From contig JAHDOI010000016.1 in assembly GCA_018434945.1 (NCBI GenBank), positions 62,001-126,000 of the forward strand: 64,000 bases of DNA, written 5' to 3'. Below, piece after piece: positions 5,863 to 57,368 of the stretch. Under the pieces are notes generated by a model that searched no databases, had not been told where the DNA came from, and was given only the letters and a program-made list of their open reading frames with translations. Position 1 is the stretch's first letter, and every line of letters begins with the position of its first letter. Made by a program: the position numbers and the translations under genes. This DNA is from Selenomonadales bacterium. Lineage in GTDB: Bacteria; Bacillota; Negativicutes; Sporomusales; UBA7701.

Positions 5863-5867
5863 CCCTG

Positions 5868-8751: not shown

Positions 8752-8871
8752 GCAGGCCGTTCAGGGCCTTGCAGGCAAGGCGGGCCGAGGACGTGCAGCG
8801 ACGCGTACACGGAAGTACGCTAGCAAACGCCCGCAGGACCAACACAGCCTGCGAGGTCATCAACGGCCTGC
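8752..8871 (+). repeat. Dispersed 3'-flanking palindrome, copy 3 (cassette A)
   Basis: Seven bases after the spoVD stop. Outer arms are GCAGGCCGTT and AACGGCCTGC. The next block has CTTGCAGGC paired with GCCTGCGAG where most copies have CCAGATGC/GCAGATGG, so the inner arm changed on both sides as well. The central hairpin is GCGTAC-acggaa-GTACGC, as in copies 1, 7 and 9. Confidence 0.9.
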
Positions 8872-8877
8872 CCTATG

Positions 8878-11016: not shown

Positions 11017-11041
11017 GCGCTTCCTCCCCCCATCGGTGAGT

Positions 11042-11485: not shown

Positions 11486-11527
11486 AGTATTTGCCCTCCC
11501 TGGAGATTAGAACATTATCTTCCCTGG

Positions 11528-12460
11528 TTATACCTTTTCCGCCACCCTGAGTTTGGCGCTGCGGGAGCGGGGGTTGGCCTCAAGCTCGGCCGGCGATGGG
11601 GGGACCGGCTTGCCGAGGGCCCTGACTTTGGGGATGTTGCCGCAGACGCACATGGGGAAGTCCTTGGGGCAGAGACAGCCTTTCGCCAGGTCCTGGATGG
11701 TCTGTTTGGCGATGCGGTCTTCGAGGGAATGGAAGGTTATTACGCATAACCGGCCGCCGGGGGCAAGCCGCTGGGCGGCTGTTTCGAGTGCGGCGCGGAG
11801 GATGCCGAGTTCGTCGTTGACGGCGATGCGGATGGCCTGGAAGGTCCGTTTGGCGGGGTGAGGCCCTTCGCGGCGGGCGGCGGCGGGGATGGCCTTTTTG
11901 ATCGTTTCCGCCAGCTCGCCGGTGGTGGCGAGGGGCCGGTGGGCGCGTTCGGCGACGATGGTGCGGGCGATCTTTTTCGCCCAGCGTTCTTCGCCGTAGT
12001 CGAAGATTATCTTGGTGAGACGGTTTTCGTCCCAGGTGTTGACGATTTCGTGGGCGGTGAGCGTGTCCGCGGGGTTCATGCGCATGTCGAGCGGTCCGTC
12101 CTGCATGTAGGAGAAGCCGCGTTCGGCGACGTCGAGCTGGTGTGAGGAGACGCCGAGGTCGAAGAGGATGCCGGTGACGGCCGGCACGCCGAGGTCGTCG
12201 AGAACGGCGCCAAGGGAGGCGAAGTTGCTGTGGACGACGGTAACCCGGCAGGAAGCGTTCCGCAGCCGGGTCTGGGCGGCCTTGAACGCCGCCGGGTCTT
12301 GGTCGATGCCGATGAACCAGGCCTCGGGACCGAGGCGCCCGGTGACGGCTGCGGCATGCCCGCCGCCCCCCAGGGTGCAGTCCACGTAGATGCCGGCCGG
12401 GTCGGTGACCAGTGCGGCGACCGTTTCTGCGAGGAGAACGCTAGTGTGTTGAAAGTCCAT
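11528..12460 (-). CDS. rsmH: 16S rRNA (cytosine1402-N4)-methyltransferase RsmH
   Basis: SAM-dependent methyltransferase modifying C1402 of 16S rRNA in the decoding centre. The 310-residue protein starts FQHTSVLLAETV and has the SAM-binding DCTLGGGGHA loop near 28-37, GIDQDPAA, FDLGVSSHQLD and the C-terminal ITFHSLEDRIAKQ and NPRSRSAKLRVAEK typical of RsmH/MraW. It is 12 bases after mraZ, with GGAGG five bases before its ATG. Confidence 0.97.
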   Translation of the reverse strand: MDFQHTSVLLAETVAALVTDPAGIYVDCTLGGGGHAAAVTGRLGPEAWFIGIDQDPAAFKAAQTRLRNASCRVTVVHSNFASLGAVLDDLGVPAVTGILFDLGVSSHQLDVAERGFSYMQDGPLDMRMNPADTLTAHEIVNTWDENRLTKIIFDYGEERWAKKIARTIVAERAHRPLATTGELAETIKKAIPAAARREGPHPAKRTFQAIRIAVNDELGILRAALETAAQRLAPGGRLCVITFHSLEDRIAKQTIQDLAKGCLCPKDFPMCVCGNIPKVRALGKPVPPSPAELEANPRSRSAKLRVAEKV

Positions 12461-12472
12461 GTCAGCCTCCGG

Positions 12473-12904
12473 CTAGATGCCGAGGTCCACCAGGTTTTCG
12501 GCGATGGTGGCGACTTCGGGGCCAATTTTGGCGTTATACTCGTCCCAAGCTTCTTTGCCCCATATTTCGATGCGGGTCGACACGCCGATGACGACGACGT
12601 CTTTGTCGAGTTTGGCGTGTTCCCTGAGGTTGGCGGGCAGGAGCACCCTGCCCTGCTTGTCGGCTTCGAGCTCGGCCGCGCCGGCGAAGAAGAAGCGGAC
12701 GAAGGCGCGGGCCTCGGGTTTGGCGAGTGGCAGTTGCTTGAGCTTGTTCTCTAGGATGGCCCACTCTTCGGGGCTGTATACGAACAGGCAGTTGTCGAGG
12801 CCTTTGGTGGCAATGAACTTTTCGCCAAGATCCTCGCGGAACTTGGCCGGAAAAATGAGGCGCCCTTTGTTGTCGATGGTATGGAGGTATTCCCCCATGA
12901 ACAT
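12473..12904 (-). CDS. mraZ: Transcriptional regulator MraZ
   Basis: AbrB-fold DNA-binding protein that controls the dcw cluster from its own promoter. The 143-residue protein has two SpoVT/AbrB-like halves, beginning [24 protein letters not shown] and, in the second half, [20 protein letters not shown], each carrying the family's DxKGR/DxQGR loop. It is first in the cluster. The start MFMGEY is the usual one for the family. The likely operator lies at 12934-12963. Confidence 0.96.
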
Positions 12905-12933
12905 GGCCTCATCACCACCTCGGTGGATTTTTC

Positions 12934-12963
12934 AACCACTTTACACCACAATCCACCACTTTT
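12934..12963 (-). promoter_or_regulatory. MraZ operator: three 10-bp direct repeats
   Basis: On the coding strand of mraZ, three consecutive 10-mers AAAAGTGGTG, GATTGTGGTG and TAAAGTGGTT lie 30-59 bases before the ATG. MraZ proteins are known to bind several tandem GTGG-containing (TGGG or AAAGTG) boxes spaced one helical turn in their own promoter. The exact 10-base period and position fit an autoregulatory site. A possible -10 (TACATA) overlaps its upstream edge, but I see no good -35. Confidence 0.75.
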
Positions 12964-12986
12964 ATGTACTTTTTCTCGACAAATTG

Positions 12987-13019
12987 AAAAAATCCTTCAT
13001 ATTTTTGAAGGATTTTTTT
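12987..13019. terminator. Symmetric hairpin terminator upstream of mraZ
   Basis: AAAAAATCCTTC (12987-12998) pairs with GAAGGATTTTTT (13007-13018) around an 8-base loop, with A and T runs on both sides, so it can terminate in either direction. It would insulate the dcw promoter from transcription of the upstream minus-strand gene at 13548-14381. Confidence 0.75.
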
Positions 13020-13295
13020 GCTTTTATTATTTGTCTGCGGCCTTTGGCTTTAACAAATAAGCATCAGGCACAAGATATTGTGGTCACCCGTTGATCAGCC
13101 CCAATATATGCACCTCGACAGACAATTTATGACAGAAAATATTTTTTAATTTTTTTTGAAAATTGGCTACGGAGGCTCGAAATACTTGAGTTGGAAGTCC
13201 TTTTCCGGGGGTTGGCAGGATTGCGGAGGGACACTTATCTGGCACAAGGGGTTGTGGTAGAAGATAATGCGCGGATCGGATTTGTACAAACTAGA
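13020..13295. other. AT-richer non-coding stretch
   Basis: No open frame with a credible start is seen here. Base composition is lower in GC than the surrounding genes, and includes a T-rich tract at about 13140-13160. Nothing further could be assigned. Confidence 0.5.
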
Positions 13296-13400
13296 GGCCG
13301 TTAAGAAGTGCCCAGATGCAAGGCGCACCGGATAAGCAGACACACAACGCTTTAGCGTTGATGTGATCGCTTATACCCGAAAGGGTGCGAGCGCGCCGCG
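13296..13400 (+). repeat. Dispersed palindrome, copy 4 (cassette D, right arm missing)
   Basis: Starts GGCCGTTAAGAAGTGCCCAG and contains the long cassette with the hairpin AACGC-ttta-GCGTT and CCC-gaaa-GGG, but stops at GCGCGCCGCG. The usual right half is absent. Copy 5 begins 19 bases further on, so this looks like a tandem insertion or a deletion between two copies. Confidence 0.85.
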
Positions 13401-35077: not shown

Positions 35078-35091
35078 GTTTCGAATTGCCG

Positions 35092-35213
35092 CGGTTGGCT
35101 AGAAGGCCCCAGATGCAAGGCGCACCGGAAGAGCGCGCTGCGACGCGTACTCGAACGTACGCTAGCAAGCGCTCTGAGGAGCAACGCCGCAGATGGGGCC
35201 TTATCGCCAACCG
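35092..35213 (+). repeat. Dispersed 3'-flanking palindrome, copy 9 (cassette A)
   Basis: Six bases after the namZ stop. Outer arms CGGTTGGC and GCCAACCG are complementary but differ from other copies. Tip GCGTAC-tcgaac-GTACGC; below it AGAGCGC pairs with GCGCTCT. Confidence 0.9.
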
Positions 35214-41711: not shown

Positions 41712-41783
41712 ATATGTACCTCTCAGATTAGTACTTACCAACAGGCGGCCAGAAGGCTTCGGATTGATGAAAGGCGCTCAACA

Positions 41784-41898
41784 GGCGCTAGAAAGATTCA
41801 GATGCAAGGCGCACCGGAGGCTGACACCGGAAGCGTACACGAACGTACGCTGAGGATGGCAGCCGAGGAGCAACGCCGCAGATGGGCTTTATAGCGCC
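41784..41898 (+). repeat. Dispersed palindrome, copy 10 (cassette B); contains a kinase stop codon
   Basis: The outer arms GGCGCTAGAAAG and CTTTATAGCGCC are complementary apart from the central base. The right arm contains the last codons and TAA of the BadF-type kinase gene. A second partial left end (GGCGGCCAGAAGGC) at about 41745 may be an older fragment. Confidence 0.85.
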
Positions 41899-42860
41899 GT
41901 CTTATCGGACTTAAGATAGTCATATCCAATTTTTAGGGCTCCCATAACCGGCTCCGGCCCCGGCGGGAGAAGTTCGGCCTGGCCGGCGAGCAGGCCGGCG
42001 AGCCGCTTCGTCAGACCCGGGTTGCCGAGCAGAAGGCCGCCGTAGAGGGCCACAGGCACCGGACCGGGGCCGGGAAAGCCGCGGGCGATGACCGAGCAGA
42101 CGAGGCCGGCGAGTTCGACGGCGGCGTCGGCGAGGATGGCGGCGGCAAGTTCGTCGCCTTCGGCGGCGGCGTCGGCGACCGTCGTTGCGAGGGCGGCGAT
42201 ATCGGCTTTGGCGGCGGCGGGGCTGTAGATGAAGGCGATGAGGCCGGCGATGTCGGCCACGCCGAGCCGGGCGATGATCTTGTCGAGGAGGGGCGAGGGG
42301 ATGTCCCGCCCTTCGGCGGCTTTGAGGCCGCGGGCAATGGCCTGGCGGCCGATGTCGTAGCCGCTGCCTTCGTCGCTGACGAGGTGGCCCCAGCCGCCGG
42401 CGCGGATGATCTCGCCGCCGCGGGTGCGGCCGTAGGCGATGGAGCCTGTGCCGGCAATGAGGACGATGCCCTCTCCCCTGTCTCCCAGCCCGGCGGCGAG
42501 GGCGATGCGGGCGTCGCTGCCGACCAGGCAGGGACAGCCCAGACCGGCCAGGGCGCCTAGGAGAAGTTGGCGGTCGCGGTCGCGATCGGCGCCGGCCAGG
42601 CCGAGGCTTACGAGGGCGAGGTCGGCCCTGGCGAATCCGGCGGCGGCGGCGAGGTCGTCGACGATGCCACCGACGAGGGCGGCGAAGGCGGGCAGGCCGA
42701 TGGTGTGGTAGTTGGCGGCGCCTTTCTCGACCCGGGCCAGCAGACGGCCAGAAAGGTCGGCGGCGCAGGCGACCGTTTTTGTGCCGCCGCCGTCGATGCC
42801 GATGAGCCAGCGCATCCTCTCCCCCACCCTTCCGTGCGTTATTTCCACTTTATTTGACAT
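41889..42860 (-). CDS. BadF/BadG-type amino-sugar kinase (MurNAc/GlcNAc kinase-like)
   Basis: 323-residue ASKHA-fold kinase. The phosphate loop is LIGIDGGGTKT, then GSDARIALAAG, the adenosine segment IAGTGSIAYGR and GGWGHLVSDEGSGYDIG. Relatives phosphorylate GlcNAc or MurNAc. It is the first gene of the amino-sugar operon, so it could make MurNAc-6P for MurQ or GlcNAc-6P. The start is uncertain: ATG 42860 (AGGAAAGAG upstream) or ATG 42815, which gives the more usual N-terminus. Confidence 0.87.
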   Translation of the reverse strand: MSNKVEITHGRVGERMRWLIGIDGGGTKTVACAADLSGRLLARVEKGAANYHTIGLPAFAALVGGIVDDLAAAAGFARADLALVSLGLAGADRDRDRQLLLGALAGLGCPCLVGSDARIALAAGLGDRGEGIVLIAGTGSIAYGRTRGGEIIRAGGWGHLVSDEGSGYDIGRQAIARGLKAAEGRDIPSPLLDKIIARLGVADIAGLIAFIYSPAAAKADIAALATTVADAAAEGDELAAAILADAAVELAGLVCSVIARGFPGPGPVPVALYGGLLLGNPGLTKRLAGLLAGQAELLPPGPEPVMGALKIGYDYLKSDKTAL

Positions 42861-42934: not shown

Positions 42935-42960
42935 CCGCCGTTATTTTTTATAAAGCCGAA

Positions 42961-43080
42961 GGCCGTTCAGAAGTGCCCAGATGCAAGGCGCACCGGAGGC
43001 TGACACCGGAAGCGTACACGTACGTACGCTGAGGATGGCAGACGAGGAGCAACGCCGCAGATGGGCGCTTATCAACGGCC
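42961..43080 (+). repeat. Dispersed palindrome, copy 11 (cassette B); contains a stop codon
   Basis: Best-preserved copy, with ends GGCCGTTCAGAAGTGCCCAG and GGGCGCTTATCAACGGCC. The right arm contains the final codons (GGC CGT TGA) of the minus-strand carboxypeptidase. Tip AGCGTAC-acgtac-GTACGCT. Confidence 0.93.
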
Positions 43081-43884
43081 GCTTACCACTGAGAACCCGT
43101 AGTCGAGGAGCTTTGCAGCATCCCCCCACCGCTCATCATCGTTGAGCAGCACGACGATGAGCTGAACGCCGCCGCGTCTGGCGGAGGCCACGAGGCAGTC
43201 GCCGGCCGCCTGGGTGTACCCTGTTTTGACGCCGCTGGCCCCGGGATAAGACTTGAGGAATTTGTTGGTGTTGCTGATTCTGACGGGGCCGCGGTTCTTG
43301 AAGGGGACGGCGTAGTCGCGCGTGGCGACGATCCTGGCGAATTCGGGATTATGCAGAGCCTGGGCGGTGATGAGGGCGAGGTCTTTGGCGGAGCTGTAGT
43401 GGTTGTTGGGGTCGGGCAGACCGTGAGGGTTGGCGAAGTGGGTGTTGATGAGGCCCATCTGCTGGATTCTGGCGTTCATCAGGTCTACGAAGGCGGGCAC
43501 CGAACCGGCGATATGCTCGGCGACCGCTTCGGCGGCGTCGTTGCCCGATACGAGCATCAGGCCGTAGAGCAGGTCGCGGAAGCTGAGGCGGTCGCCGGCC
43601 CGGAGCTCGAGGCTTGAGCCTTCGCAACTGGCGGCACGGCCGCTGACGGTGACTAAGGAATCCGGTTTGCCCCGTTCCAGGGCGACGAGGGCGGTCATGA
43701 TTTTGGTGGTGCTGGCGGGGTACATGATGGCGTCAGGGTTGATGGCGTACAGTATCCGTCTTGTGCCGGCGACCATGAGCACGGCCGCTTCGGCGTCGAC
43801 TTTGGGGGCCGGTGGCGCCGCGAGGACAACGGTCTGGCAGAGAAGCACGATTATGGCGATCAGCGGTATGAGACGGCGGCGCAT
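43072..43884 (-). CDS. dacF: D-alanyl-D-alanine carboxypeptidase (PBP5/DacF family)
   Basis: 270-residue exported penicillin-binding protein that trims the terminal D-Ala of stem peptides. Signal peptide 1-22. Catalytic motifs: STTK in MYPASTTKIMTAL, SGN in LMLVSGNDAAEA, and KTG in SGVKTGYT. It lacks the C-terminal domain and membrane anchor of PBP5, so it may be soluble outside the membrane. DacF in Bacillus is spore-specific; expression here is unknown. Its last two residues and stop lie in palindrome copy 11. Confidence 0.92.
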   Translation of the reverse strand: MRRRLIPLIAIIVLLCQTVVLAAPPAPKVDAEAAVLMVAGTRRILYAINPDAIMYPASTTKIMTALVALERGKPDSLVTVSGRAASCEGSSLELRAGDRLSFRDLLYGLMLVSGNDAAEAVAEHIAGSVPAFVDLMNARIQQMGLINTHFANPHGLPDPNNHYSSAKDLALITAQALHNPEFARIVATRDYAVPFKNRGPVRISNTNKFLKSYPGASGVKTGYTQAAGDCLVASARRGGVQLIVVLLNDDERWGDAAKLLDYGFSVVSGR

Positions 43885-46409: not shown

Positions 46410-47471
46410 ATGACTGTCATGACCGACGCCGAGCTTTGGCCGGCGGAGTATCTGGGCGACAGCCGACCGCCGCGGTCGCTGTCGATGCCCTGGCAGATGA
46501 ATGTTGCGCTGACGACACGCTGCCCGCTGAACTGCCCGCAGTGTTATGTGAAGGCGGAGGAAGCGCGGGACATCGATTGGGATGTGCTGGCGGCTTTTAT
46601 CGCCGAGGCTTCGGCGCTGAAGGTGCATGAGCTTAATCTGAGCGGCGGCGAGCCCCTCTCTTACCCCCGGCTGGTGGAGGCGGTCAGGCTGGCGACGGCG
46701 GCGGGGATCGGGACGGCGGTGGCGACGAGCGGCGTGGGATTGACTGCCGAGCTGGCGAAGGAGCTGAGGGATAGCGGCCTGGGCAGCCTGTGGCTGTCGC
46801 TGAATGGGTCGCGGGAGGAAATCCACTCCCTGTCGCGCGCCTGCTTCCGTGAGACGGTGGCGGCGGCCGAGCTGCTGCGCAGCCTGGGCCAGCCCTTCTA
46901 TATAAATTGGGTGGCCCGCCGCGACAACGCCGGCGATTTTCCCGCCCTGGTGACCAAAGCGAAGGAACTGGGGGCGGGAGGCATAGTCGTCCTGGTGCTG
47001 AAGCCCGATTCCCGCCACAACGCCGAGGCGGTCCTGACAGGCGAGGCTTTCTTCCGGCTGGCGGCGTTCCTGCGCGGCTACGACGACCCGGCGATGCCGA
47101 TCGAGGTAGAGAGCTGTTATCCGGCGCTGCGGCTGGCGGTGTACGGGAAGTGGACGACAGGCATCGAAGCAGGCTGCAGCGCGGGGCGCGACGCGGTGGC
47201 GGTGGATGTGGACGGCCGGCTCAACCCCTGCCCGCACCTGGATTATCCCGAGGCCGGGCTGACGGTCAGGGAGTATTGGCAGAATTCGCCGGTGCTGGCG
47301 GCTTTAAGAGCGACGGAGGAGGCGATCGGCGCCCCCTGCAACCGGTGCGGGCATACCCCCTACTGCCGGCCGTGCCGGGCGAAGGCGGTCAAGGTGTACG
47401 GCGACCCGTCGGCCGGCGACCGGCAGTGCCCGGTGGCGCTGCGGGAGTTGACGGGACGCCTGTTCGGGTAA
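46410..47471 (+). CDS. Radical SAM/SPASM-domain protein
   Basis: 353-residue cytoplasmic Fe-S enzyme. The radical SAM cluster motif is Cys38-x3-Cys42-x2-Cys45 (RCPLNCPQCYVKAEEA), followed by LNLSGGEPLSYPRL. The C-terminal SPASM region supplies further Cys: DVDGRLNPCPHL, then APCNRCGHTPYCRPCRA. SPASM enzymes often modify peptides or act in cofactor assembly. Its neighbours are the YeeE/YedE pair upstream on the same transcript and the NHLP peptide cluster downstream, so the substrate could belong to either. Start ATG follows GGTGA. Confidence 0.85.
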   Translation: MTVMTDAELWPAEYLGDSRPPRSLSMPWQMNVALTTRCPLNCPQCYVKAEEARDIDWDVLAAFIAEASALKVHELNLSGGEPLSYPRLVEAVRLATAAGIGTAVATSGVGLTAELAKELRDSGLGSLWLSLNGSREEIHSLSRACFRETVAAAELLRSLGQPFYINWVARRDNAGDFPALVTKAKELGAGGIVVLVLKPDSRHNAEAVLTGEAFFRLAAFLRGYDDPAMPIEVESCYPALRLAVYGKWTTGIEAGCSAGRDAVAVDVDGRLNPCPHLDYPEAGLTVREYWQNSPVLAALRATEEAIGAPCNRCGHTPYCRPCRAKAVKVYGDPSAGDRQCPVALRELTGRLFG

Positions 47472-47543: not shown

Positions 47544-47882
47544 TCAGTCGGAACCGGAGGTTCGACCCTCCGGCGCATTTGCCGCCGCCTCAAGTTGTTC
47601 GAGGAATCGCGACAACAGTTCCCGCTGCTGCGGCGTGAGCCGCTGGGCGGCTTCCACCAGGCGCTCGATGTCAGGCGGCAAAAGGATGCCTGGCGAAAAA
47701 AACTCCGCCAAAGTGACACCAAGCGCTTCGCAGATGCGGTAGAGGGTTTCGATGGAAGGGGTTTTGATGTCGCGCTCTATCTGGCTTATGAAGGGCTGCG
47801 AGAGGTCAGTCGCCCGCGCCAGCTCCTCGAGGGTGAGCCGGTTAGCCTTGCGGAGACGCCTGATCCGTTGTCCGATATCCAT
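47544..47882 (-). CDS. XRE-family transcriptional regulator
   Basis: 112-residue DNA-binding protein. The helix-turn-helix is at about 4-60: IGQRIRRLRKANRLTLEELA, then ATDLSQPFISQIERDIKTPSIETLYRICEALGV. A short C-terminal helical region (RLVEAAQRLTPQQRELLSRFLEQL) resembles dimerisation tails of SinR-like regulators. It follows the NHLP precursor genes by about 100 bases on the same strand and may control them. Start ATG 47882. Confidence 0.88.
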   Translation of the reverse strand: MDIGQRIRRLRKANRLTLEELARATDLSQPFISQIERDIKTPSIETLYRICEALGVTLAEFFSPGILLPPDIERLVEAAQRLTPQQRELLSRFLEQLEAAANAPEGRTSGSD

Positions 47883-47981: not shown

Positions 47982-48668
47982 TTACCAGCGCCGGTGGAAG
48001 ATGCTGGCGACGGCGTGCGCGGCCTTGGATACTCCCGAGCCGACTGCTTTTGCGGCGGTGGCGATGCCTTGACGGACATCGCCGTCGGCGATGAGCCCGC
48101 CTATCCCCGAGATGATAAGAGGTGCGCCGAATATGACGCCGCCAGGAAGAACCGACATGGCGGCACCGGCGACAATCGAGCCGCCGCCTACGCCGTACTG
48201 GACTTTCTGCAGCGTACTTGTGCCGCCGGCGACCTGGTCGAGCTCGGCGTCGGTGAGGCTGGGCGGCCGCTGGGGGATGACGATATAGTAAGTGTTTTCG
48301 GTCTGCTCGACGACTTTGAGGGCGGGCTTGTCAGGCAGCGTGTAGTTGAGATGATCCCGGAAAGCGGCCTTGGGGTCGGCGAGGAGGGCGGCCTTGAAGG
48401 GAGATTCGGCCCAGGCCTTGGCGGAGATGCGCACCTGGACGTCCTGCTCGTCGTCCGCGGAGAGCATCGCGGGCGGTATGAGGACGAGGTGCTCGGTGTC
48501 GGGGGTGTCGAAGAGAACTTCGACGTTGGTGCCGGCGGGTAAGTCGAGGCCGAATTCGCCGGCGATGATGCCCTTGGGGTCGGCGGCGAACTGGCGCCGG
48601 TAATCGGGGCTGGACCAGACGCGGGCGAGGAGCTCGGCCCGCTTGTTCTCAATGGCGGTGTTGTCCAT
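47982..48668 (-). CDS. NHLP-family peptide precursor with two leader domains (core A)
   Basis: 228-residue precursor for the NHLM export system. Two tandem nitrile-hydratase-alpha-like leader units are at about 1-65 (KRAELLARVWSSPDYRRQF...) and 76-147 (RISAKAWAESPFKAALLADP...). They end LDQVAGG at 148-149, the double-Gly processing site. The 79-residue core is hydrophobic and Gly-rich (YGVGGGSIVAGAAM), then amphipathic and cationic, ending IFHRRW. The core has no Cys. GGGAGGT precedes the ATG. It lies 34 bases after its paralogue and shares its promoter. Confidence 0.87.
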   Translation of the reverse strand: MDNTAIENKRAELLARVWSSPDYRRQFAADPKGIIAGEFGLDLPAGTNVEVLFDTPDTEHLVLIPPAMLSADDEQDVQVRISAKAWAESPFKAALLADPKAAFRDHLNYTLPDKPALKVVEQTENTYYIVIPQRPPSLTDAELDQVAGGTSTLQKVQYGVGGGSIVAGAAMSVLPGGVIFGAPLIISGIGGLIADGDVRQGIATAAKAVGSGVSKAAHAVASIFHRRW

Positions 48669-48702
48669 TTTAATACCTCCCTGTTTGACCTTTTCGTGCG
48701 GC

Positions 48703-49380
48703 TTACCAGCCGTGGAAGACTTTTTTGGCGGCGTGGCCGATGGATTTGCCGATTTTCTTGCCTTCGTGGCCGATCCATTTGGCATCCGCTTTCACGGTGT
48801 CGCGGTCTTGATACATTGTCAGACCGATCGTAGCGACCGAAGCCGGAGTCATCCACGGCTCCACGATAGCGGCGCCTCCCCATAATGCGATGGTGACGCC
48901 CATATCGATGTTTTGTTGCTCTGTCTTGCTCATGCCGCCGGCGACTTTGTCGAGGTCGGCGTCGGAAAGAGTAGCGGGGCGGACGGGGATTATACCGTAG
49001 ACGTGGTCACCGGTTTGCTCGACGACTTTAATGTGGACGCCGGGGTTGATTTTAGCGGCGAAAGCGGCGGTTAGGGCGGCGGCGGGGTCGGCGAGGAGGG
49101 CTTTTTTGAAGGCGGGGTCGGTCCAGGCTTTGGCGAGGATGGCGGCCTTGGGGCCGGCCTTCTCTTCGTCAGGCAGATCGTCCGGGTCGACGAGAACGAG
49201 ATGGACGGTGTCGGCAGTGTCTTCGAGGATGGTTACGGTGATGTCGGCGGGCAGGTCGAGGGAGAATTCGCGGGCGATAATTTCCTTGGGGTCGGCGATG
49301 AGGGCTTCGCGGTACCCGGGATCGGTCCAGGCCTTGCTTATCACCGCTGCGCGCTTGTGGACGATGTCGCTCTTCTCCAT
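48703..49380 (-). CDS. NHLP-family peptide precursor with two leader domains (core B)
   Basis: 225-residue paralogue of the next gene, with the same layout: leader units at about 1-65 (KRAAVISKAWTDPGYREAL) and 78-147 (KAAILAKAWTDPAFKKALLADP), and LDKVAGG ending at 148-149, the identical position. The 76-residue core starts MSKTEQQNIDMG, has a hydrophobic middle, and ends in a Lys/His-rich amphipathic helix (KKIGKSIGHAAKKVFHGW). No Cys in the core. First gene of the operon, with a near-consensus promoter at 49445-49474 and GGAGGG before the ATG. Confidence 0.87.
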   Translation of the reverse strand: MEKSDIVHKRAAVISKAWTDPGYREALIADPKEIIAREFSLDLPADITVTILEDTADTVHLVLVDPDDLPDEEKAGPKAAILAKAWTDPAFKKALLADPAAALTAAFAAKINPGVHIKVVEQTGDHVYGIIPVRPATLSDADLDKVAGGMSKTEQQNIDMGVTIALWGGAAIVEPWMTPASVATIGLTMYQDRDTVKADAKWIGHEGKKIGKSIGHAAKKVFHGW

Positions 49381-49444
49381 TGGGCTCCCTCCTAAAATCG
49401 CGGCGTGTTAACCATAAGTAAAAATGCTATTCCCTTTTGAGCAA

Positions 49445-49474
49445 ATTATAGCTCTTGGTTAAATATTGTGTCAA
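49445..49474 (-). promoter_or_regulatory. SigA promoter of the NHLP precursor operon
   Basis: On the minus strand TTGACA (49474-49469) and TATAAT (49450-49445) with an 18-base spacer, both hexamers at consensus. It is the strongest promoter seen in the window. Confidence 0.85.
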
Positions 49475-49592
49475 GTTAATTTTTTCCTCGCCGGCCAAAT
49501 TTTTGTCGATTCCAGCGATTGCGGAAAGCTGTCCAGGGAGAAATGTGTCGCTATTTTGACCGTTTTATCGCTTTCCGGCGGGAAAATAGTGC

Positions 49593-49621
49593 TTGCCAAA
49601 AGGAAGAATTTGTGAAATAAT
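49593..49621 (+). promoter_or_regulatory. SigA-type promoter of the Nif11-leader/NHLM exporter side
   Basis: TTGCCA at 49593-49598 and AATAAT at 49616-49621 with a 17-base spacer, 62 bases before the GTG. It is divergent from the precursor promoter. Confidence 0.7.
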
Positions 49622-49683
49622 AACTGTGAGTTATATTTATTCTTTTACATGCGCGGGTATTGATTTGTCGGGAGGCGACGAGG

Positions 49684-50034
49684 GTGGAGGAGCGCAAGCT
49701 GCAGTTATTCATGGATAAGGCGGTAAACGAGGAGCTGTTCCGCCGGCGCATGGAGCAGGCGTCTTCCCTGCAGGACGCTCTGGCGGTACTGAAGGGCGAG
49801 GGCCTGGAGATGGGCGCGGAGGAGTTCCGTTCGGCCCTGAGGCTGCTGCTGTATGTGGTGAAGGCGGCGAAGGGCGAGCTGAGCGAGGACGACCTCGATT
49901 CGGTGTCGGGCGGCGTGGGTGTTTTGGCCGCGACGTTCCTGCGGCAGGGCGCGTACGGCACGGAACCCGGCAGGCAGGCCGCGGCAACGATGGCCGGCGT
50001 GCTGGCGGAGAAGTTTTTGGCGGGACGCGGGTAA
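49684..50034 (+). CDS. Nif11-type leader peptide precursor
   Basis: 116-residue small protein. Residues 1-75 resemble a Nif11-like leader (LQLFMDKAVNEELFRRRMEQASSLQDAL..., ending ELSEDDLDSVSGG) with the double-Gly at 76-77. The 39-residue tail (VGVLAATFLRQGAYGTEPGR...) is Ala/Gly-rich with no Cys. Start is GTG 49684, eight bases after GGAGG. It lies upstream of the NHLM exporter genes with palindrome copy 12 between. If processed, it would be a third peptide with a leader class different from the two NHLP precursors. Confidence 0.75.
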   Translation: MEERKLQLFMDKAVNEELFRRRMEQASSLQDALAVLKGEGLEMGAEEFRSALRLLLYVVKAAKGELSEDDLDSVSGGVGVLAATFLRQGAYGTEPGRQAAATMAGVLAEKFLAGRG

Positions 50035-50085
50035 TTCGAGCTAGCTCGCAAAGCTGTAATGATTAAGGCCTTACTCGCATAGAAA

Positions 50086-50208
50086 GGCCGTTCAGAAGCG
50101 CCTGGATGCAAGGCGCACCGGAGGATGGCCCGCGTCGGCGTACTTGGTTGCGTACGTCAAGCGGGCCATCCGAGGAGCAACGCCGCAGACAGGTGCTTAT
50201 CAACGGCC
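50086..50208 (+). repeat. Dispersed palindrome, copy 12 (cassette C)
   Basis: 52 bases after the Nif11-type gene. Left end GGCCGTTCAGAAGCGCCTGG and right end CAGGTGCTTATCAACGGCC; the inner arm changed from CCCA/TGGG to CCTG/CAGG on both sides. Centre GGATGGCCC paired with GGGCCATCC. Confidence 0.9.
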
Positions 50209-50230
50209 GAAACCCCGAGGAGTGGATGGC

Positions 50231-51199
50231 TTGGACGACGGCCTGTTCCGCAAAATCGCTCTGGACCGACTTTCGTCGCCGGAGCAGCTGGATCAACTGA
50301 TGACGGTGACGACGCCCCGCGGCTGGCTGGTCCTGCTGGCGATGATCGTGCTGCTGGCGGCCGCCCTCGGCTGGGGATTCCTCGGCAGCGTGGCGACGAC
50401 GGTGACCGGCCAGGGGCTGCTGGTTTCTTCCGGCGGCGTTTTCAATATCGCCCATCATGCCGAGGGCCAGGTCCTCGATATCGAGGTCGCTCCCGGGGAT
50501 TTCCTGGCGAAGGGACAGAGCGTCGCCCTGGTGGCCCAGCCCGATCTGGTGCTGGCGATAAGGCAGGCGAAGAGCGAGCTCCGCGTGGCGACCAGCCAAT
50601 CCGAATACAGCGCCAAGCTGGCCCAGATCCAGACGCTCGAGACGAAGCTGAGCGATTATATGAGGGTTATAAGCCCGGTCTCCGGGATGGTGCTCGAAGT
50701 CAAGATCAACCCCGGCGAGTATATCAAGCCGGGGCAGGCGATCGTGAGCATCAATCTGGCGGATGCCAATACCGGCCAGATTTCCCGCGAGGTGGCGATG
50801 TATGTGCCTGCGGAGGAAGGCAAGCGGGTGGTGCCGGGTATGGAGGTCCGCGTCAGCCCGGCGATGGTGAAGAAGGAGGAGCACGGTTATATCCTGGGCA
50901 AGGTCCGTTCGGTGTCTGAGCTGCCTGTGACGGCGGACGGGATGCTGCGGGTGCTGGGCAGCCGCGAGCTTGTCCAGAAGTTCCTGGCCGGCACGCCGGC
51001 CGTGCTGGAACTGAGGGTGGAGCTGCTGTCCGATGAGACTACCCCGAGCGGTTACCTGTGGTCTTCGCGGCGCGGTCCGAACCTGAAGATCGGCGACGGC
51101 ACGATCTGCAGCGGCTCGATCGTTGTGAAGCGGCAGCGGCCGATCAGCCTGGTGCTGCTGGAGATGGACCAATTGCTGCGGAGCGTAACCGACCGATGA
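50231..51199 (+). CDS. NHLM system membrane-fusion (HlyD-like) secretion protein
   Basis: 322-residue inner-membrane adaptor. One N-terminal membrane segment (about 33-55) precedes a biotinyl-lipoyl-like half (SSGGVFNIAHHAEGQVLDIEVAPGDFLAKGQSVA), a short helical hairpin and the second half (SPVSGMVLEVKINPGEYIKPGQ). It matches the secretion protein that accompanies NHLM ABC transporters. Start is inferred as TTG 50231, eight bases after GAGGAG. Its stop overlaps the ATG of the next gene. Confidence 0.85.
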   Translation: MDDGLFRKIALDRLSSPEQLDQLMTVTTPRGWLVLLAMIVLLAAALGWGFLGSVATTVTGQGLLVSSGGVFNIAHHAEGQVLDIEVAPGDFLAKGQSVALVAQPDLVLAIRQAKSELRVATSQSEYSAKLAQIQTLETKLSDYMRVISPVSGMVLEVKINPGEYIKPGQAIVSINLADANTGQISREVAMYVPAEEGKRVVPGMEVRVSPAMVKKEEHGYILGKVRSVSELPVTADGMLRVLGSRELVQKFLAGTPAVLELRVELLSDETTPSGYLWSSRRGPNLKIGDGTICSGSIVVKRQRPISLVLLEMDQLLRSVTDR

Positions 51200-53403
51200 A
51201 CAGGTGGCTGGATAAGTTCGAAGCTTTCCTGAGCGGCGGCGATTATAAAAAAACCCCCACCGTCATCCAGATGGAGGCGGTGGAGTGCGGGGCGGCGGCG
51301 CTGGCCGTCGTGCTGGGCTTCCACGGCAAGACGGTGCCGCTGGAGGAGCTGCGCGTGGTGTGCGGCGTGTCGCGCGACGGCAGCAAGGCGAGCAGTATGG
51401 TGAAGGCGGCCCGCGCGTACGGATTGGTGGCGCGGGGGGTGCGCAAGGAGCCGGATGAGCTGCGCGAGCTGCCCTTGCCGATGATCGTCCACTGGAATTT
51501 CAACCATTTCCTGGTCGTCGAGGGCTTCGGGAAAGACCGGGTTTTCCTCAACGACCCGGCCAGCGGACGGCGGACGGTGTCGACGGCGGAGTTCGACCAG
51601 GCTTTCACCGGCATCGCGCTGCTGTTCGAGCCGGGCCCGGATTTTACGCGCAGCGGTTCCCGGCCCAGTATTATTGACAGTTTACGCCAGCGTCTGGCGG
51701 GCTACCGGACGACGGTGGCTTTTTTGGTGTTGGTGGGCTTCTGCCTGGTGGTTCCGGGGCTTGTGGTGCCGGCGTTCACGCGCATTTTCATCGACGATGT
51801 CCTCGTGGCCGGCAACCAGGACTGGCTGAGGGCGCTGCTGTTCGGGATGCTGGTGACGGTGGGCGCCCAGATGGTGCTGACGTGGTGCCGCGAGCATTAT
51901 CTGCTGCGGTTCGAGACCAAGCTGGCGGTGAGCACTTCGGGCAGTTTTTTCTGGCATGTGCTGCGCCTGCCGATGGAGTTTTTCACCAATCGCTACGGCG
52001 GGGATATAATTTCCCGGGTGCAGATAAACGATGCTGTCGCCCAAATGCTGGCCGGCCAGGTGGCGTCGGTGTTTCTCGATTTTATGATGATCGGCTTCTT
52101 CCTGGCGGTGATGCTGTACTACGATGTCGCCCTGACGCTGGTGGGCGTGGTTATCGCCGCCCTCAATCTGGCGTTTCTGCTGGGGGTGGCCAGGTGGCGC
52201 AAGGACCAGAATATGAAGTTTCTCCAGGATCAGGGCAAGCTGGCCGGGGTGTCGATGGGCGGTCTGCAGATCATCGAGACGGTGAAGGCGGGCGGCAACG
52301 AGGCCGATCTGTTCGATAAGTGGGCCGGTTACCAGATAAAGCTGATGAACGCCGAGCAGCGGCTGGCGGTTTATAATGAGATGCTCGGCGCGGTGCCGTT
52401 GTCGCTGATGACGCTGAACACTTCGGCTATCCTGGTGCTGGGCGGGTATAAGGTCATCGCCGGCCAGATGACGATCGGCGCGCTGATGGCTTTCCAGACG
52501 CTGATGGCGAGCTTCCTCGGGCCGGTGAACCGCCTGGTGGGCTTCGGCGGGGTGCTGCAGGAGATGGAGGGCGACCTCCGCCGCCTGGATGATGTCATGA
52601 AGTATCGCGTCGACCCCCAGACGGAGTCCGACGAAGCCCTGACGGCGGCGACGAAGCTGGAGGGGGCGGTGGAGTTTACGGCGGTGACGTTCGGCTATAA
52701 CAGGCTGGAGGCGCCGCTGCTGGAGGATTTCAGCCTGACCGCGCGCCCCGGCGAGCGTATCGCGCTGGTGGGCGGCTCGGGGAGCGGCAAGTCGACGGTG
52801 GCACGTCTGGCCGCCGGCCTGTACCAGCCGTGGAGCGGGGAAATCAGCCTCGACGGGCGGCGGCGGGATAAGCTGCCCCGCGAGCTGATCACGAATTCGC
52901 TGACGTCGGTCGATCAGGATATCTGCCTGTTCGAGGGGACGGTGCGCGAGAATCTGACGATGTGGGACACGACGGTCCCTGACGCCGATCTGTTCGCCGC
53001 CGCCCGCGACGCGGCCATCCACGACGATATCATCGCTTTGCCGGATGCCTACGACTACCGTATGTCCGAGGGCGGCCGCGATTTCAGCGGCGGCCAGCGG
53101 CAGCGCCTGGAGATCGCCCGGGCGCTGGCGACAAACCCTTCGGTCGTTATTCTCGATGAGGCGACAAGCGCGCTCGACCCGGTGACCGAGAAGACCGTGA
53201 TGGAGAATATCCGGCGGCGCGGCTGCACGTGCCTGATCGTTGCCCACCGGCTGAGCGCGGTCCGCGACGCGGACGAGATCATCGTGCTGGAATACGGGAA
53301 GATCGTCCAGCGGGGCCGCCACGAGGAACTGATCGCCGTGGACGGCCTGTACCACGACCTTGTGGGGTCGACCGCGGGCGATTCCGGGGAGAAAGGCGGA
53401 TAG
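51196..53403 (+). CDS. NHLM peptidase/permease/ATPase ABC transporter (C39 type)
   Basis: 735-residue exporter that should cut the double-Gly leader and export the peptide. The C39 domain (1-150) has Gln25, Cys31 (VIQMEAVECGAAALA), His104 (WNFNHFLVVEG) and Asp120 (NDPASGRR). About six membrane segments follow (150-450). The ATPase has Walker A GGSGSGKST at 526-534, FSGGQRQRLE near 630 and Walker B VVILDEATSALDP near 650. All catalytic positions are intact. Its ATG overlaps the preceding stop. Confidence 0.93.
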   Translation: MNRWLDKFEAFLSGGDYKKTPTVIQMEAVECGAAALAVVLGFHGKTVPLEELRVVCGVSRDGSKASSMVKAARAYGLVARGVRKEPDELRELPLPMIVHWNFNHFLVVEGFGKDRVFLNDPASGRRTVSTAEFDQAFTGIALLFEPGPDFTRSGSRPSIIDSLRQRLAGYRTTVAFLVLVGFCLVVPGLVVPAFTRIFIDDVLVAGNQDWLRALLFGMLVTVGAQMVLTWCREHYLLRFETKLAVSTSGSFFWHVLRLPMEFFTNRYGGDIISRVQINDAVAQMLAGQVASVFLDFMMIGFFLAVMLYYDVALTLVGVVIAALNLAFLLGVARWRKDQNMKFLQDQGKLAGVSMGGLQIIETVKAGGNEADLFDKWAGYQIKLMNAEQRLAVYNEMLGAVPLSLMTLNTSAILVLGGYKVIAGQMTIGALMAFQTLMASFLGPVNRLVGFGGVLQEMEGDLRRLDDVMKYRVDPQTESDEALTAATKLEGAVEFTAVTFGYNRLEAPLLEDFSLTARPGERIALVGGSGSGKSTVARLAAGLYQPWSGEISLDGRRRDKLPRELITNSLTSVDQDICLFEGTVRENLTMWDTTVPDADLFAAARDAAIHDDIIALPDAYDYRMSEGGRDFSGGQRQRLEIARALATNPSVVILDEATSALDPVTEKTVMENIRRRGCTCLIVAHRLSAVRDADEIIVLEYGKIVQRGRHEELIAVDGLYHDLVGSTAGDSGEKGG

Positions 53404-53406: not shown

Positions 53407-56025
53407 ATGCGAGTGCAGCTGACAAAGGCTACCGGGCCTATCCGCCTCGACGCGCCGGATACGATGTGGATGGTGCTGGCGGGGACGGTGGCGGTGACGG
53501 CGCGGCGTCTGGCGGACGGCCAGCCGGACGGACGGCCGCTGGGCCTGTTCACCGCGGGCCCCGGCCAGGCGCTGTTCGGCCTGGGCGCGGCGGATGTCGC
53601 CCTGTTCGCGGCCGGTGAGGACGCGGAGCTTGAAGAGCAGCCCCTCGATCGGGCGGCGGCGCATGATCTGACGCGGCTGACGGCCGAGTGGACGGCGTCG
53701 CTGGCGGCCGCGCTGGCGGACGACGCCGCACTGCCGCAGGAACCGGGCGGTGACGGCGCGCCGGCCGATTGGCCGACGGCGCTGAGGCTTTACCATCAGG
53801 AGGCGGCGGCCGGCCTGGCGGCGGGCATTGCCGCCGCCGAACGGCGGGACCGGGAGCGGCTGGCCAGAAGGCGGGAGCGGGATATCCGCACCGCCCAGGA
53901 GGCGTTCGCCCGCCTTTCGAGGGTCATCGAGCCGGGCGGCGCCCCCCCGCTGGCCACAGAGGCCGGCGATCCGCTGCTGGCGGCCTGCCGGCTGGTGGCG
54001 GCGTCGATCGGTGTGGATGCGGATACCGTCCATTCCCCCGGCCACCGGAGCGGGGACGCCGACGGCAACCTGAAGCTGCTGGCCCAGGCGTCTCGCCTCA
54101 AGTGCCACCGGGTGCTGCTGCGGGACGACTGGTGGCGCCGGGACAACGGCCCGCTGGTGGCTTTCCGCGGCGAAGGGCGGCCGGTCGCGCTGCTGCCGGC
54201 AAGTCCGGAACGTTATGATCTCGCCGACCCGCAGACGGGCGAGACGATTCCGGTGACGGCGGCGATCGCCGGCGAACTGCTGAATGATGCGTATATGTTT
54301 TTCCGCCCGCTGCCGGACAAGGCGGTCGGTGGCAAGGATATAATCCTGTTCGCGCTTCGCAGCTGCTGGCGGCGCGATCTGCTGATGATCGTGCTGATGG
54401 GGGTCGCCGGCGGCCTGCTGGGGATGGTCTCCCCCATCGCCACAGGCATTCTGATGAGCGATATCATCCCGTCCGCCGATCTGGACGGCATGCTGGTGAT
54501 GGCCGGTCTGCTGCTGGCACTGACGATGTCCGGGTTCCTGTTCGAGTTCTCGCGGTCGCTGGCGATCATCCGCAGCGAGAACCGGATGAACATGGCGCTC
54601 GAGGCGGCGGTCTGGGACCGGCTGCTGGGCCTGCCGGCGCCTTTCTTCCGCCAGTATACCGTCGGCGATCTGGCCACCCGGGCCGGCGGCATCAACGCCA
54701 TCCGCCAGCTGCTGTCGGGCGTGGCGCTGTCGTCGATCATGTCGGGAATCTTCTCGTTCTTCAATCTCGCCCTGCTCTTTTATTACAGCGCCAAACTGGC
54801 CCTGATCGCCATTGTCCTTGTGGCCGTTTTCCTGGTTATCATGGTGCCGGTCTGTTATATCGAGTTCCGCTACCGCCGCCAGTTGATGGAGATCGCCGGC
54901 AGGCTCGCCGGCACGATGCTGCAGATCGTCGGCGGGATCGCCAAGTTCCGCATGACGGGAACGGAGAACCGCGCTTTTTTCTTGTGGGCCAAGGATTTTT
55001 CCCGCCAGCGCGAGGTGGCGGTGCGGGCGCGCGTCGTTGCTTATTCGATGGCGGTCTTCAACGCCGGTTATCTGATCTTCACCCAGGCGGTGATCTATTA
55101 TTCCGTGTCCGGCCCGGCGTCCGGCGTGGCACCTGCCCAGTTCATCGCCTTCAACGCCGCGTTTTCGAGCTTTTTCGGCTCGGCTGTCGCCCTGTCATCT
55201 TCCCTGCTGGCGGTCATGGATATCATCCCGCTGTACGAGCGGACGCGGCCGGTGCTGGAAACGCTGCCGGAGGTGAGCGAGGCGCGGCGCGATCCCGGCA
55301 CGCTGGCGGGCGAGATCCGCGTCGACCGTGTCAGCTTCCGTTACCGCTCCGAGGGGGCGATGGTTCTCGACGACGTGAGCCTGCGGATCGGCAAGGGCGA
55401 GTTCGTGGCGATCGTCGGGCCGTCGGGCAGCGGCAAGTCGACGCTGCTGCGCCTGCTGCTGGGCTTCGAGAAGCCGGCGGCCGGGGGCGTGTATTACGAC
55501 GGACAGGACCTGAAGGAGCTTAATGTGCGGGCCGTCCGCTCTCAGCTGGGGGTCGTGATCCAGAACGGCCAGCTGATGGCCGGCGATATATACGGCAATA
55601 TCGTGGGGTCGGCCAACCTGCCGGTGGACGCCGCCTGGGAGGCGGCGACGATGGCCGGCATCGACGAGGATATCCGCCGTATGCCGATGGGGATGTTCAC
55701 GATGATCAGCGAAGGCGCGGCGACGATCAGCGGCGGCCAGCGCCAGAGGCTGCTGATCGCCAGGGCGCTCATCAAGCGCCCGCGCATCGTCTTTTTCGAC
55801 GAGGCGACAAGCGCCCTCGACAACAGGACACAGGCGATCGTGAGCGCGAGCCTGGAGAGGCTCCAGGCGACGCGGGTGGTGATCGCCCACCGCCTGAGCA
55901 CGGTGATGGGCGCTGACCGCATCTATGTGCTCGATAAGGGCGGCATCGTGGAGAGCGGCACTTTCCGCGAACTGATGGACAGGCAGGGGCTGTTCGCCGA
56001 GCTCGCCCGCCGCCAGATGGCATGA
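53407..56025 (+). CDS. NHLM system second ABC transporter
   Basis: 872-residue membrane ABC protein. The first about 300 residues resemble a cyclic-nucleotide-binding-like sensor with long linker, without a peptidase motif. Six membrane segments follow at about 330-610. The ATPase has Walker A GPSGSGKST near 671, ISGGQRQRLLIA near 774 and Walker B IVFFDEATSALD. This domain set is that of the second transporter of NHLM bacteriocin systems. It lies three bases after the first ABC gene. The reason for two ABC proteins is unknown. Confidence 0.9.
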   Translation: MRVQLTKATGPIRLDAPDTMWMVLAGTVAVTARRLADGQPDGRPLGLFTAGPGQALFGLGAADVALFAAGEDAELEEQPLDRAAAHDLTRLTAEWTASLAAALADDAALPQEPGGDGAPADWPTALRLYHQEAAAGLAAGIAAAERRDRERLARRRERDIRTAQEAFARLSRVIEPGGAPPLATEAGDPLLAACRLVAASIGVDADTVHSPGHRSGDADGNLKLLAQASRLKCHRVLLRDDWWRRDNGPLVAFRGEGRPVALLPASPERYDLADPQTGETIPVTAAIAGELLNDAYMFFRPLPDKAVGGKDIILFALRSCWRRDLLMIVLMGVAGGLLGMVSPIATGILMSDIIPSADLDGMLVMAGLLLALTMSGFLFEFSRSLAIIRSENRMNMALEAAVWDRLLGLPAPFFRQYTVGDLATRAGGINAIRQLLSGVALSSIMSGIFSFFNLALLFYYSAKLALIAIVLVAVFLVIMVPVCYIEFRYRRQLMEIAGRLAGTMLQIVGGIAKFRMTGTENRAFFLWAKDFSRQREVAVRARVVAYSMAVFNAGYLIFTQAVIYYSVSGPASGVAPAQFIAFNAAFSSFFGSAVALSSSLLAVMDIIPLYERTRPVLETLPEVSEARRDPGTLAGEIRVDRVSFRYRSEGAMVLDDVSLRIGKGEFVAIVGPSGSGKSTLLRLLLGFEKPAAGGVYYDGQDLKELNVRAVRSQLGVVIQNGQLMAGDIYGNIVGSANLPVDAAWEAATMAGIDEDIRRMPMGMFTMISEGAATISGGQRQRLLIARALIKRPRIVFFDEATSALDNRTQAIVSASLERLQATRVVIAHRLSTVMGADRIYVLDKGGIVESGTFRELMDRQGLFAELARRQMA

Positions 56026-56071: not shown

Positions 56072-57184
56072 GTGTTTCTTGACAGACGGACAATAATCTA
56101 TGCGGTTGTGGCAGCGCTGGTGGTGGCGGGCCTGTTGGCATTTTTGGCGTGGCGCATCGCCGATAATTACAGCGTCAGCCGGGACCGGGCAGAGCGCCTT
56201 TCCGCGACCAACGTGGCGGTACAGGCGGCCGCGGTGACGCAGCGCGATATCGCCGCGAGGTATTCGTTCACAGGCAAGCTGGAACCGGCCTGGACCATCG
56301 ATGTGAGTCCGCAGATCGAAGGCCGCATCGAGAAGCTGCTGGTGGCCGAGGGGGATGTCGTCAGGGCCGGGGCGACGGTGGCTATCCTGGATACGCGGGA
56401 ACTCGCGGGGCAGGTAGCCGCGGCCGAGGCCAGCCTGGCGGCGGCCCGCGGCAGCCAGGCCCAGGCGGAGGGCGACCTGAAGAGGTCGCAGGGGCTTGAC
56501 GCTTATAACGCGGTGTCGAAGCAGACGCTGGAGAACGACCGCATCAAGGTGCAGATCGCCAAAGCCCAGGTCGAGGCGGCCGCGGCCAACGCGGCTTCGG
56601 TCAGGGCCCGCCTCAACAACGGCCGGGTGGTGGCGTCGCGGAACGGTGTCGTGGTGAAGCAGTACCAGGGCGAGGGCGCGTACGCGCGGCCCGGTCTGCC
56701 GATCATTAACCTGGCCGGCGAGGACGAGATGGTCGCCCGCCTGGTGGTGACCGAGCCGGTCGCCAAGGTGCTGGCACCAGGGGCGGCGGTGCAGATGCGG
56801 GTGGCCGCGCTCGGCCGGACGATAACCGGCAGGGTTGCGCGGCAGGTGGCGCTGTCCGACCAGATCGAGCTGAATTACGCGGTCACGGTGACGTTCGCCA
56901 ACGCCGACCGGCGGTTGAAGTCGGGCATGGAGGTGAGCGGCGAGGTTTCCGGCCCGACGGTGCGGAACGCGGCGGCCGTCCCCGCCCAGGCGGTCATTTC
57001 CCGCGAAGGGCGCAAGACGGTTTTCGTGGTCACGAAGGACGGCGTGTCCGACCAGCGGAAAATCAAGGCCGGAGTGAGCGACGGCGTGTGGGTCGAGGTG
57101 CTCGAGGGCCTTGCAGCGGACGAACGGGTTGTTGTGTCCGGGTTGGATAAGATGCAGGACGGCATGCGCGTTAATGTGCAGTAA
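56072..57184 (+). CDS. RND-type membrane-fusion protein
   Basis: 370-residue adaptor with an N-terminal membrane segment (about 7-27), a lipoyl-like half (VSPQIEGRIEKLLVAEGDVVRAG), a coiled-coil hairpin (AEASLAAARGSQAQAEGDL...), the second half (VVASRNGVVVKQYQGEGAYARPG) and beta-barrel. This resembles adaptors of RND and MacB-type export rather than the NHLM HlyD. GGGGAGGG precedes GTG 56072. Directly after the NHLM ABC genes, so it probably completes the exporter. Confidence 0.88.
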   Translation: MFLDRRTIIYAVVAALVVAGLLAFLAWRIADNYSVSRDRAERLSATNVAVQAAAVTQRDIAARYSFTGKLEPAWTIDVSPQIEGRIEKLLVAEGDVVRAGATVAILDTRELAGQVAAAEASLAAARGSQAQAEGDLKRSQGLDAYNAVSKQTLENDRIKVQIAKAQVEAAAANAASVRARLNNGRVVASRNGVVVKQYQGEGAYARPGLPIINLAGEDEMVARLVVTEPVAKVLAPGAAVQMRVAALGRTITGRVARQVALSDQIELNYAVTVTFANADRRLKSGMEVSGEVSGPTVRNAAAVPAQAVISREGRKTVFVVTKDGVSDQRKIKAGVSDGVWVEVLEGLAADERVVVSGLDKMQDGMRVNVQ

Positions 57185-57193
57185 AAACGAAGG

Positions 57194-57368
57194 CGGCCGT
57201 TAAGAAAGCCCCAGGTGCTAGGCGCACCGGATAAGCAGACACACAACGCTTCAGCGTTGATGTGATCGCTTATACCCGAGAGGGTGCGAGCGCGCCGCGA
57301 CGCGTACTCGGATGTACGCTAGCAAGCGCTCTGAGGAGCAACAACGCAGATGGGGCTTTATCAACGGT
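57194..57368 (+). repeat. Dispersed 3'-flanking palindrome, copy 13 (cassette D)
   Basis: Ten bases after the membrane-fusion gene stop, before its terminator. Left end GGCCGTTAAGAAAGCCCCAG and right end GGGGCTTTATCAACGGTC. Same long cassette as 16629-16804, with AACGC-ttca-GCGTT and CCC-gaga-GGG. Confidence 0.9.

Follow-up and report, generated by a model that had tools for sequence, protein, structure and literature searches.

Gene organization of the island

The locus lies in a 64,000-nucleotide stretch of a Selenomonadales genome, here called the window. It carries a radical SAM/SPASM gene, a regulator, two NHLP-leader precursors, a Nif11-leader precursor and exporter genes, with the following coordinates:

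46410-47471, plus strand: radical SAM/SPASM protein, 353 aa (Pfam Radical_SAM, 6.7e-19), the proposed maturase
47544-47882, minus strand: Cro/CI-type HTH regulator, 112 aa (Pfam HTH_3, 1.9e-17), syntenic in G003 and G004
47982-48668, minus strand: precursor A, 228 aa (TIGR03793, 95 bits, two matched stretches); unit 1 at 48453-48668, unit 2 at 48222-48452, core at 47985-48221
48703-49380, minus strand: precursor B, 225 aa (TIGR03793, 114 bits, two matched stretches), with orthologues in G003 and G004; unit 1 at 49165-49380, unit 2 at 48934-49164, core at 48706-48933
49408-49474, minus strand: B-A promoter, TTGACA-18-TATAAT at 49445-49474, matching 12 of 12 consensus positions
49408-49414 and 49456-49462: dyad at the B-A promoter, TTAACCA and TGGTTAA, a block conserved in three species
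49593-49621, plus strand: promoter-like site of the Nif11 precursor, 10 of 12 positions, in a block invariant in three species
49621-49633, plus strand: palindrome TAACTGTGAGTTA, within the 49593-49633 element of the Nif11 precursor
49684-50034, plus strand: Nif11-leader precursor, 116 aa, GTG start at 49684, with VSGG followed by a 39-aa core without Cys
50144-51199 (approximate start), plus strand: HlyD-like membrane fusion protein of the NHLP exporter (TIGR03794, 306 bits, cut-off 156)
51196-53403, plus strand: PCAT, comprising C39 peptidase, permease and ATPase (TIGR03796, 1076 bits, cut-off 853; Peptidase_C39, 3.6e-36)
53407-56025, plus strand: second ABC half of the NHLP exporter (TIGR03797, 930 bits, cut-off 709)
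56072-57184, plus strand: RND-type periplasmic adaptor (TIGR01730, 198 bits), inside the presence/absence island

On the minus strand, precursor B precedes A across a 34-nt spacer, and the two probably form one short operon driven by a strong, probably HTH-controlled promoter that matches the sigma-70 consensus. The 3 kb contain five promoter-like sites, against 0.9 in shuffles, and the dyad's right half-site has one mismatch in G003. A 267-aa frame of A opens at an in-frame ATG at 48785, within B; the start is placed at 48668 because this position has a good ribosome site and is identical in sister species. The Nif11 precursor is divergent from B-A. The first-pass annotation was right to place it beside the NHLP pair: it scores 25.2 bits with Pfam Nif11 (gathering 23.8) and 31.5 bits with TIGR03798, just under the cut-off of 32.3. 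Its core sequence diverges quickly among species. Searches of the island for known RNA elements found none.

The NHLP export system is complete, with all three TIGR families above their cut-offs, and these matches support the earlier proposal that the peptides would leave through it. An RND adaptor also adjoins exporter genes in G019. In G001 the sulfur transporter gene directly borders MmgE, an empty site from which the radical SAM gene is missing, while in G003 the segment from the radical SAM gene through the RND adaptor is inserted between the same two genes. Because of this empty and filled pair, the segment is judged to be one presence/absence unit; the comparison is that of G001 with G003, since the right-hand neighbours are different in this genome (G000) and in G004, being spore germination genes. 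The HTH regulator may be older than the island, because in G002 a gene whose product is 76% identical adjoins the sulfur transporter gene and the rest of the island is absent. A dispersed intergenic repeat of about 120 bp occurs in the window at 13435, 35091-35213, 41780-41902, 42959-43081, 50084-50209 and 57193-57362; one copy comes straight after the Nif11 gene and another lies at the island's right edge.

Profile searches recognised no immunity gene among the island genes. LanC has no match in the genome, and YcaO none in the island and one on another contig. This only YcaO of the genome (605 aa; L020 3628-5445, G000:C8) sits beside motAB-like genes with no precursor recognised; having no link to the locus, it was rejected as an enzyme for the island.

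Precursor peptides A and B

Both precursors exceed the TIGR03793 cut-off of 50.9 bits, and in each the two matched stretches lie within a single open frame, confirming that the duplicated unit described earlier aligns to the NHLP leader profile. On a profile built from these very units and their orthologues, unit 1 scores 95-104 bits and unit 2 111-118 bits. The leader is 149 residues long in A and B, with two units as against the usual single unit of about 70-85 residues, and it ends in VAGG at residues 146-149 (VVGG in G003), the GG-type cleavage site that had been proposed. The complete cleavage motif, LxxxxL plus GG with Leu at -12 and -7, is confined to unit 2; unit 1 ends in LPDEE or an LSADD-like sequence without GG.

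The cores are 79 aa (A) and 76 aa (B), free of Cys and Trp-ended as first described, with the C-termini FHRRW and FHGW, and consist of a Gly-rich part followed by an amphipathic part. Their net charge is mildly positive (+4 and +2), so that "cationic", the term used initially, fits the C-terminal stretch and less so the entire core. With no Cys in either core, Cys-based modification is excluded for A and B, and Cys-based RiPP types such as sactipeptides do not describe the cores of this genome. XYG occurs in two cores of the window, those of A and of the Nif11 precursor. Splicease-type substrates were rejected since XYG is absent from core B and is not retained in the Nif11 cores of the sister species. 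The PDB holds no convincing core homologue, and the core models are of low confidence (pLDDT under 50-65 for most of the core), so their fold is left uninterpreted.

The locus recurs in two sister species: G004 has A, B and the Nif11 precursor, and G003 keeps B, the Nif11 precursor, the radical SAM gene and the exporter without A. Downstream of B in G003, a 21-nt stretch similar to the end of A (E 0.002) is perhaps a remnant of A. The earlier two-peptide proposal therefore fares unevenly: A and B adjoin each other in two species, but the lack of A in one sister species casts doubt on a strict two-peptide mode. G004 also encodes a third two-unit precursor, an orphan away from the locus with a different core ending in HGW. 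Both units and the cores evolve under purifying selection across the three species. In A, dN/dS is 0.20 for unit 1, 0.20 for unit 2 and 0.24 for the core; in B it is 0.13-0.45; overall, units span 0.13-0.33 (unit 1, 0.18-0.33) and cores 0.24-0.45.

A two-unit profile run over 398 phylum genomes finds two-unit leaders in this genome alone, with one-unit matches in the remaining 13 genomes that match, and full two-unit leaders among 28 genomes of the order occur in this genus alone (3 genomes); these figures describe samples, and rarer two-unit cases in other phyla may exist. G019, of the same order, has a shorter NHLP leader of roughly 1.7 units. In GTDB 220, with one genome per species, full-length identity among the matches listed is to the G003 assembly alone. 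No leader relatives were found on viral contigs, and the open-access literature yielded no description of two NHLP units ahead of one core.

Two other NHLP loci of the order are recorded here in their own right. Three species of the genus carry an orphan one-unit NHLP precursor (L019 9522-9887, L023 9488-9859, L025 9472-9840). Its core is short (...DIVMTGGGPGPxSxPFVFK...), and no exporter lies nearby. In G019, a polytheonamide-like cluster (L146, G019:C1:1634000-1653900, 2234-13387) encodes a PoyD epimerase (439 bits), a B12 radical SAM methyltransferase (544 bits) and a precursor of 176 aa, in which about 1.7 NHLP units are followed by a core rich in Val, Ala and Asn and free of Cys. Its HlyD, PCAT and RND adaptor are of the same kinds as in the island, and a 961-aa frame occupies the expected place of the second ABC half.

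Predicted leader fold and kinship to nitrile hydratase alpha

The unit profile matches twice, at similar spacing, in 70 of 70 nitrile hydratase (NHase) alpha frames retrieved, and NHase alpha is therefore itself a tandem of the NHLP unit. In these frames (L066-L139) the two copies flank the CxxCSC loop. In the 2010 description, by contrast, NHLP was taken for an NHase from which 63 residues had been deleted (PMC2887384).

In the AlphaFold models of A and B, the order helix-helix-helix-strand-strand occurs twice. VIA-align superposes A on NHase alpha with Z 7.6-9.0 over 132-151 residues, mostly at about 4 A, the aligned residues including a few of the low-confidence core, so that leader-only coverage is somewhat smaller. 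For B, Z is 9.1-10.4 over 138-154 residues; with one-unit NHLP structures Z is no higher than 2-3. Middling Z values are common with this method, but sequence homology to NHase alpha is support independent of the structure models. The two units are thus predicted to fold jointly as an NHase-alpha-like two-repeat domain without the metal loop. The first-pass annotation assigned no use to the duplicated leaders; the fold prediction now suggests what they form, and we infer a use for this domain below.

Judged by profile scores, the favoured origin of the tandem is that an NHLP unit was duplicated. For both units the best-scoring profile is the one-unit NHLP and neither NHase half, and on the usual NHLP pattern unit 1 scores 55 bits and unit 2 88 bits. 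In sequence searches unit 1 pairs with NHase repeat 2 and unit 2 with NHase repeat 1, a reversed order, and a tree of the units gives no decision between old inheritance and duplication. Stand-alone NHLP-like domains found near the radical SAM gene elsewhere were tried as an in-trans unit 1 and rejected; they are ordinary NHLP-like domains (hhalign probability 96%, against 1% for unit 1).

Radical SAM/SPASM enzyme and its relatives

The radical SAM/SPASM protein has a CX3CX2C motif and seven SPASM cysteines. These cysteines do not vary among eight relatives at the positions covered. Its gene stands 1 kb from the precursors, inside the island, and is co-inherited with them: an orthologue occurs in exactly 3 of 28 genomes of the order, those with two-unit precursors, and is absent from the other 25. 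None of the named radical SAM/SPASM maturases in NCBIfam scores above its cut-off, the best being PqqE at 97 bits against 381, and two relatives likewise fall far below the NCBIfam cut-offs. The island enzyme matches no PoyD-type or B12 radical SAM model; the PoyD family has no match in the genus, and control genomes gave none either.

Relatives outside the genus number 12, five in the 398-genome phylum sample (E 1e-72 to 1e-86) and seven more from a class-wide search. In 9 of the 12 genomes (G178, G104, G174, G290, G465, G462, G438, G437 and G451), GG-type NHLP/Nif11 precursors occur at the locus of the relative, together with exporter genes where covered; in G104 the precursors are on a separate short contig. 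By the profiles used, 3 of the 12 loci have no precursor: the stretches of G469 and G442 are truncated, and G054 has exporter genes and a small GG-containing protein that the profiles missed. No relatives were found on plasmids. The enzyme thus belongs to a family without a curated name that is linked repeatedly to NHLP/Nif11 clusters.

These observations change the view of modification at the locus. The absence of lanthionine synthetase and YcaO holds for the island, but the question of modification enzymes had been framed too narrowly around YcaO and LanM, given the radical SAM/SPASM gene 1 kb away. The option of radical SAM-modified peptides gains support from the position of this gene, whereas "largely unmodified" finds no support beside an adjacent, co-inherited enzyme whose relatives occur in NHLP/Nif11 clusters. 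The refuting condition set out earlier, that modification enzymes for these cores be encoded elsewhere, thus applies in part: the proposed maturase is present, and these cores are its putative substrates.

Distribution of the Trp-ended cores

In the relatives' clusters, the Trp end is found in all 24 Nif11-type precursors, which come from nine genomes of related species and include paralogues and so are not independent, and in none of 7 NHLP precursors. In this genus it is found in 5 of 5 two-unit NHLP precursors of the island and in 0 of 3 Nif11 ones. Among NHLP precursors without this radical SAM gene, 9 of 30 end in Trp, so that the enzyme may have a target other than the Trp end; the figure for proteins in general is 7 of 184. 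Core B resembles a Nif11 core from G178 that also ends in Trp (z 7.4, matched by 0 of 200 shuffles, with Trp held fixed and about 30 cores tried), and this similarity suggests a single core type borne by both leader kinds, Nif11 and NHLP. Core B also resembles the orphan core of G004 (z 8.8); compared directly, cores A and B give z 1.3, which is not significant.

Two groups of clusters are noted alongside. L172, L174 and L175 (also L155, L158 and L171) are multi-precursor clusters whose Nif11 cores end in RSRW, RGRW, DARW or GRRW and whose one-unit NHLP cores bear a G-W-x-W-P-like motif. Of these, L155 gave scored matches for a peptide arginase-like gene and for additional enzymes. In Terracidiphilus gabretensis (L062, 5514-7556), five one-unit NHLP precursors in tandem have hydrophobic, Cys-free cores, all Trp-ended, with no radical SAM gene noticed within 13 kb.

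Proposed pathway and alternative explanations

The locus is best explained, with modest confidence, as a modified NHLP/Nif11 RiPP island in which Trp-ended cores stand behind a two-unit NHase-alpha-like leader. The folded leader would hold the unusually long, membrane-seeking core inactive and offer a docking surface to the radical SAM enzyme, which would modify at least one island core at a non-Cys residue, perhaps near the C-terminal Trp. PCAT would then cleave after VAGG, and the second ABC half, HlyD and the RND adaptor would export the peptide. By analogy, the exported peptide would act as an antibacterial, probably a membrane-active one. The substrate of the radical SAM enzyme could be the Nif11 core alone. 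Counting against this explanation is the reversal described above, since relatives place Trp-ended cores behind Nif11 leaders and not behind NHLP leaders. That the locus presents both a new leader kind, a two-unit NHase-alpha-like holder and docking domain acting in cis, and a new radical SAM family working on Trp-ended, Cys-free cores, with the core type moved between leaders, is possible and is advanced tentatively.

A and B may instead be unmodified, class II-like (two-peptide) bacteriocins, the radical SAM enzyme acting on the Nif11 core only or elsewhere. Cys-free cores that are Gly-rich and then amphipathic, adjacent genes in one operon in two species, and an island without YcaO in a genome without LanC all suit this view. 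It is nevertheless rather unlikely, given an enzyme that is co-inherited with the precursors and whose family is tied to NHLP/Nif11 clusters, the entire machinery with B and no A in G003, and the absence of a recognised immunity gene. A polytheonamide-like proteusin, in which PoyD-type enzymes and B12 radical SAM enzymes would epimerise or methylate residues, is very improbable. The NHLP leader would fit, as would the cluster in G019, where both enzymes accompany a leader of about 1.7 units, along with exporter proteins of the same kinds and an RND adaptor; the island enzyme, however, fits no such model, PoyD is matchless in the genus and the controls alike, and the cores lack the Val/Ala/Asn-rich character.

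The leader itself admits two other accounts. Unit 1 could be a neutral remnant from a duplication within the gene, with the leader acting as an ordinary one-unit NHLP. Retention of the cleavage motif in unit 2 only and the greater distance of unit 1 from the usual NHLP pattern speak for this, but purifying selection on unit 1 and its retention in A, B and the orphan of G004 make it improbable. Alternatively, the leader could preserve the full NHase alpha architecture, ancestral to one-unit NHLPs, with no later duplication. The two copies in every NHase alpha frame and the superposition of both halves agree with that, yet the NHLP-best scores and the wrong repeat order go against it and the tree is indecisive. 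Collinear retention is accordingly not favoured and appears quite improbable.

The favoured reading, a modified RiPP island, matters in two respects. It describes a natural precursor with a leader predicted as a full two-repeat, enzyme-like fold, which opens to testing the question of why the nitrile hydratase fold was taken up by RiPP precursors at all. It also brings forward an uncharacterised radical SAM/SPASM family with a substrate pattern, namely Cys-poor cores that are Trp-ended in all Nif11-type precursors outside the genus, through which new peptide chemistry can be searched for with defined substrates.

Comparison with known systems

NHLP/Nif11 RiPPs with a dedicated exporter have been known as a kind since 2010 (Haft et al. 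2010, PMC2887384). The island shares with the NHLP proteusin type (TIGR03793; PMC2887384) its leader family, GG motif, adjoining exporter and Nif11 precursor in the cluster, and differs in having two leader units instead of one, no Cys and no YcaO or LanM. In a survey of anaerobes, NHLP leaders measure 66-85 aa and cores 14-59 aa (PMC4289311), against 149 and 76-79 aa here. The Burkholderia-type pairs of TIGR03795 (fused in Delftia and Acidovorax; PMC2887384) likewise consist of NHLP-related precursors in pairs, some of the pairs in a single polypeptide. There, however, the fusion joins two precursors, a cyclodehydratase is close by and this exporter is missing; the present proteins have two leader units ahead of a single core.

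Nitrile hydratase alpha likewise has two tandem units at similar spacing and a predicted common fold across both halves, but the precursors lack its metal-binding CxxCSC loop and end in a cleavage site and core peptide. The one-unit leaders MprE7 (8TB1) and DprE2 (9CJX) combine helices and strands as predicted here, and MprE7 has LxxxxL ahead of its cleavage site in the same way (PMC10858898, PMC12455567). Both have one unit, and MprE7 was studied with YcaO and brominase enzymes, not with a radical SAM enzyme. Closest in enzyme are the clusters with the same radical SAM family (L155, L156, L158-L160 and L171-L176), alike in a radical SAM protein of about 40% identity, the same exporter wherever covered, and Trp-ended cores of Nif11 type. 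In those clusters the Trp-ended cores stand behind Nif11 leaders, with no two-unit leaders, and extra enzymes are present: a peptide arginase-like protein, a second radical SAM enzyme and DUF7005.
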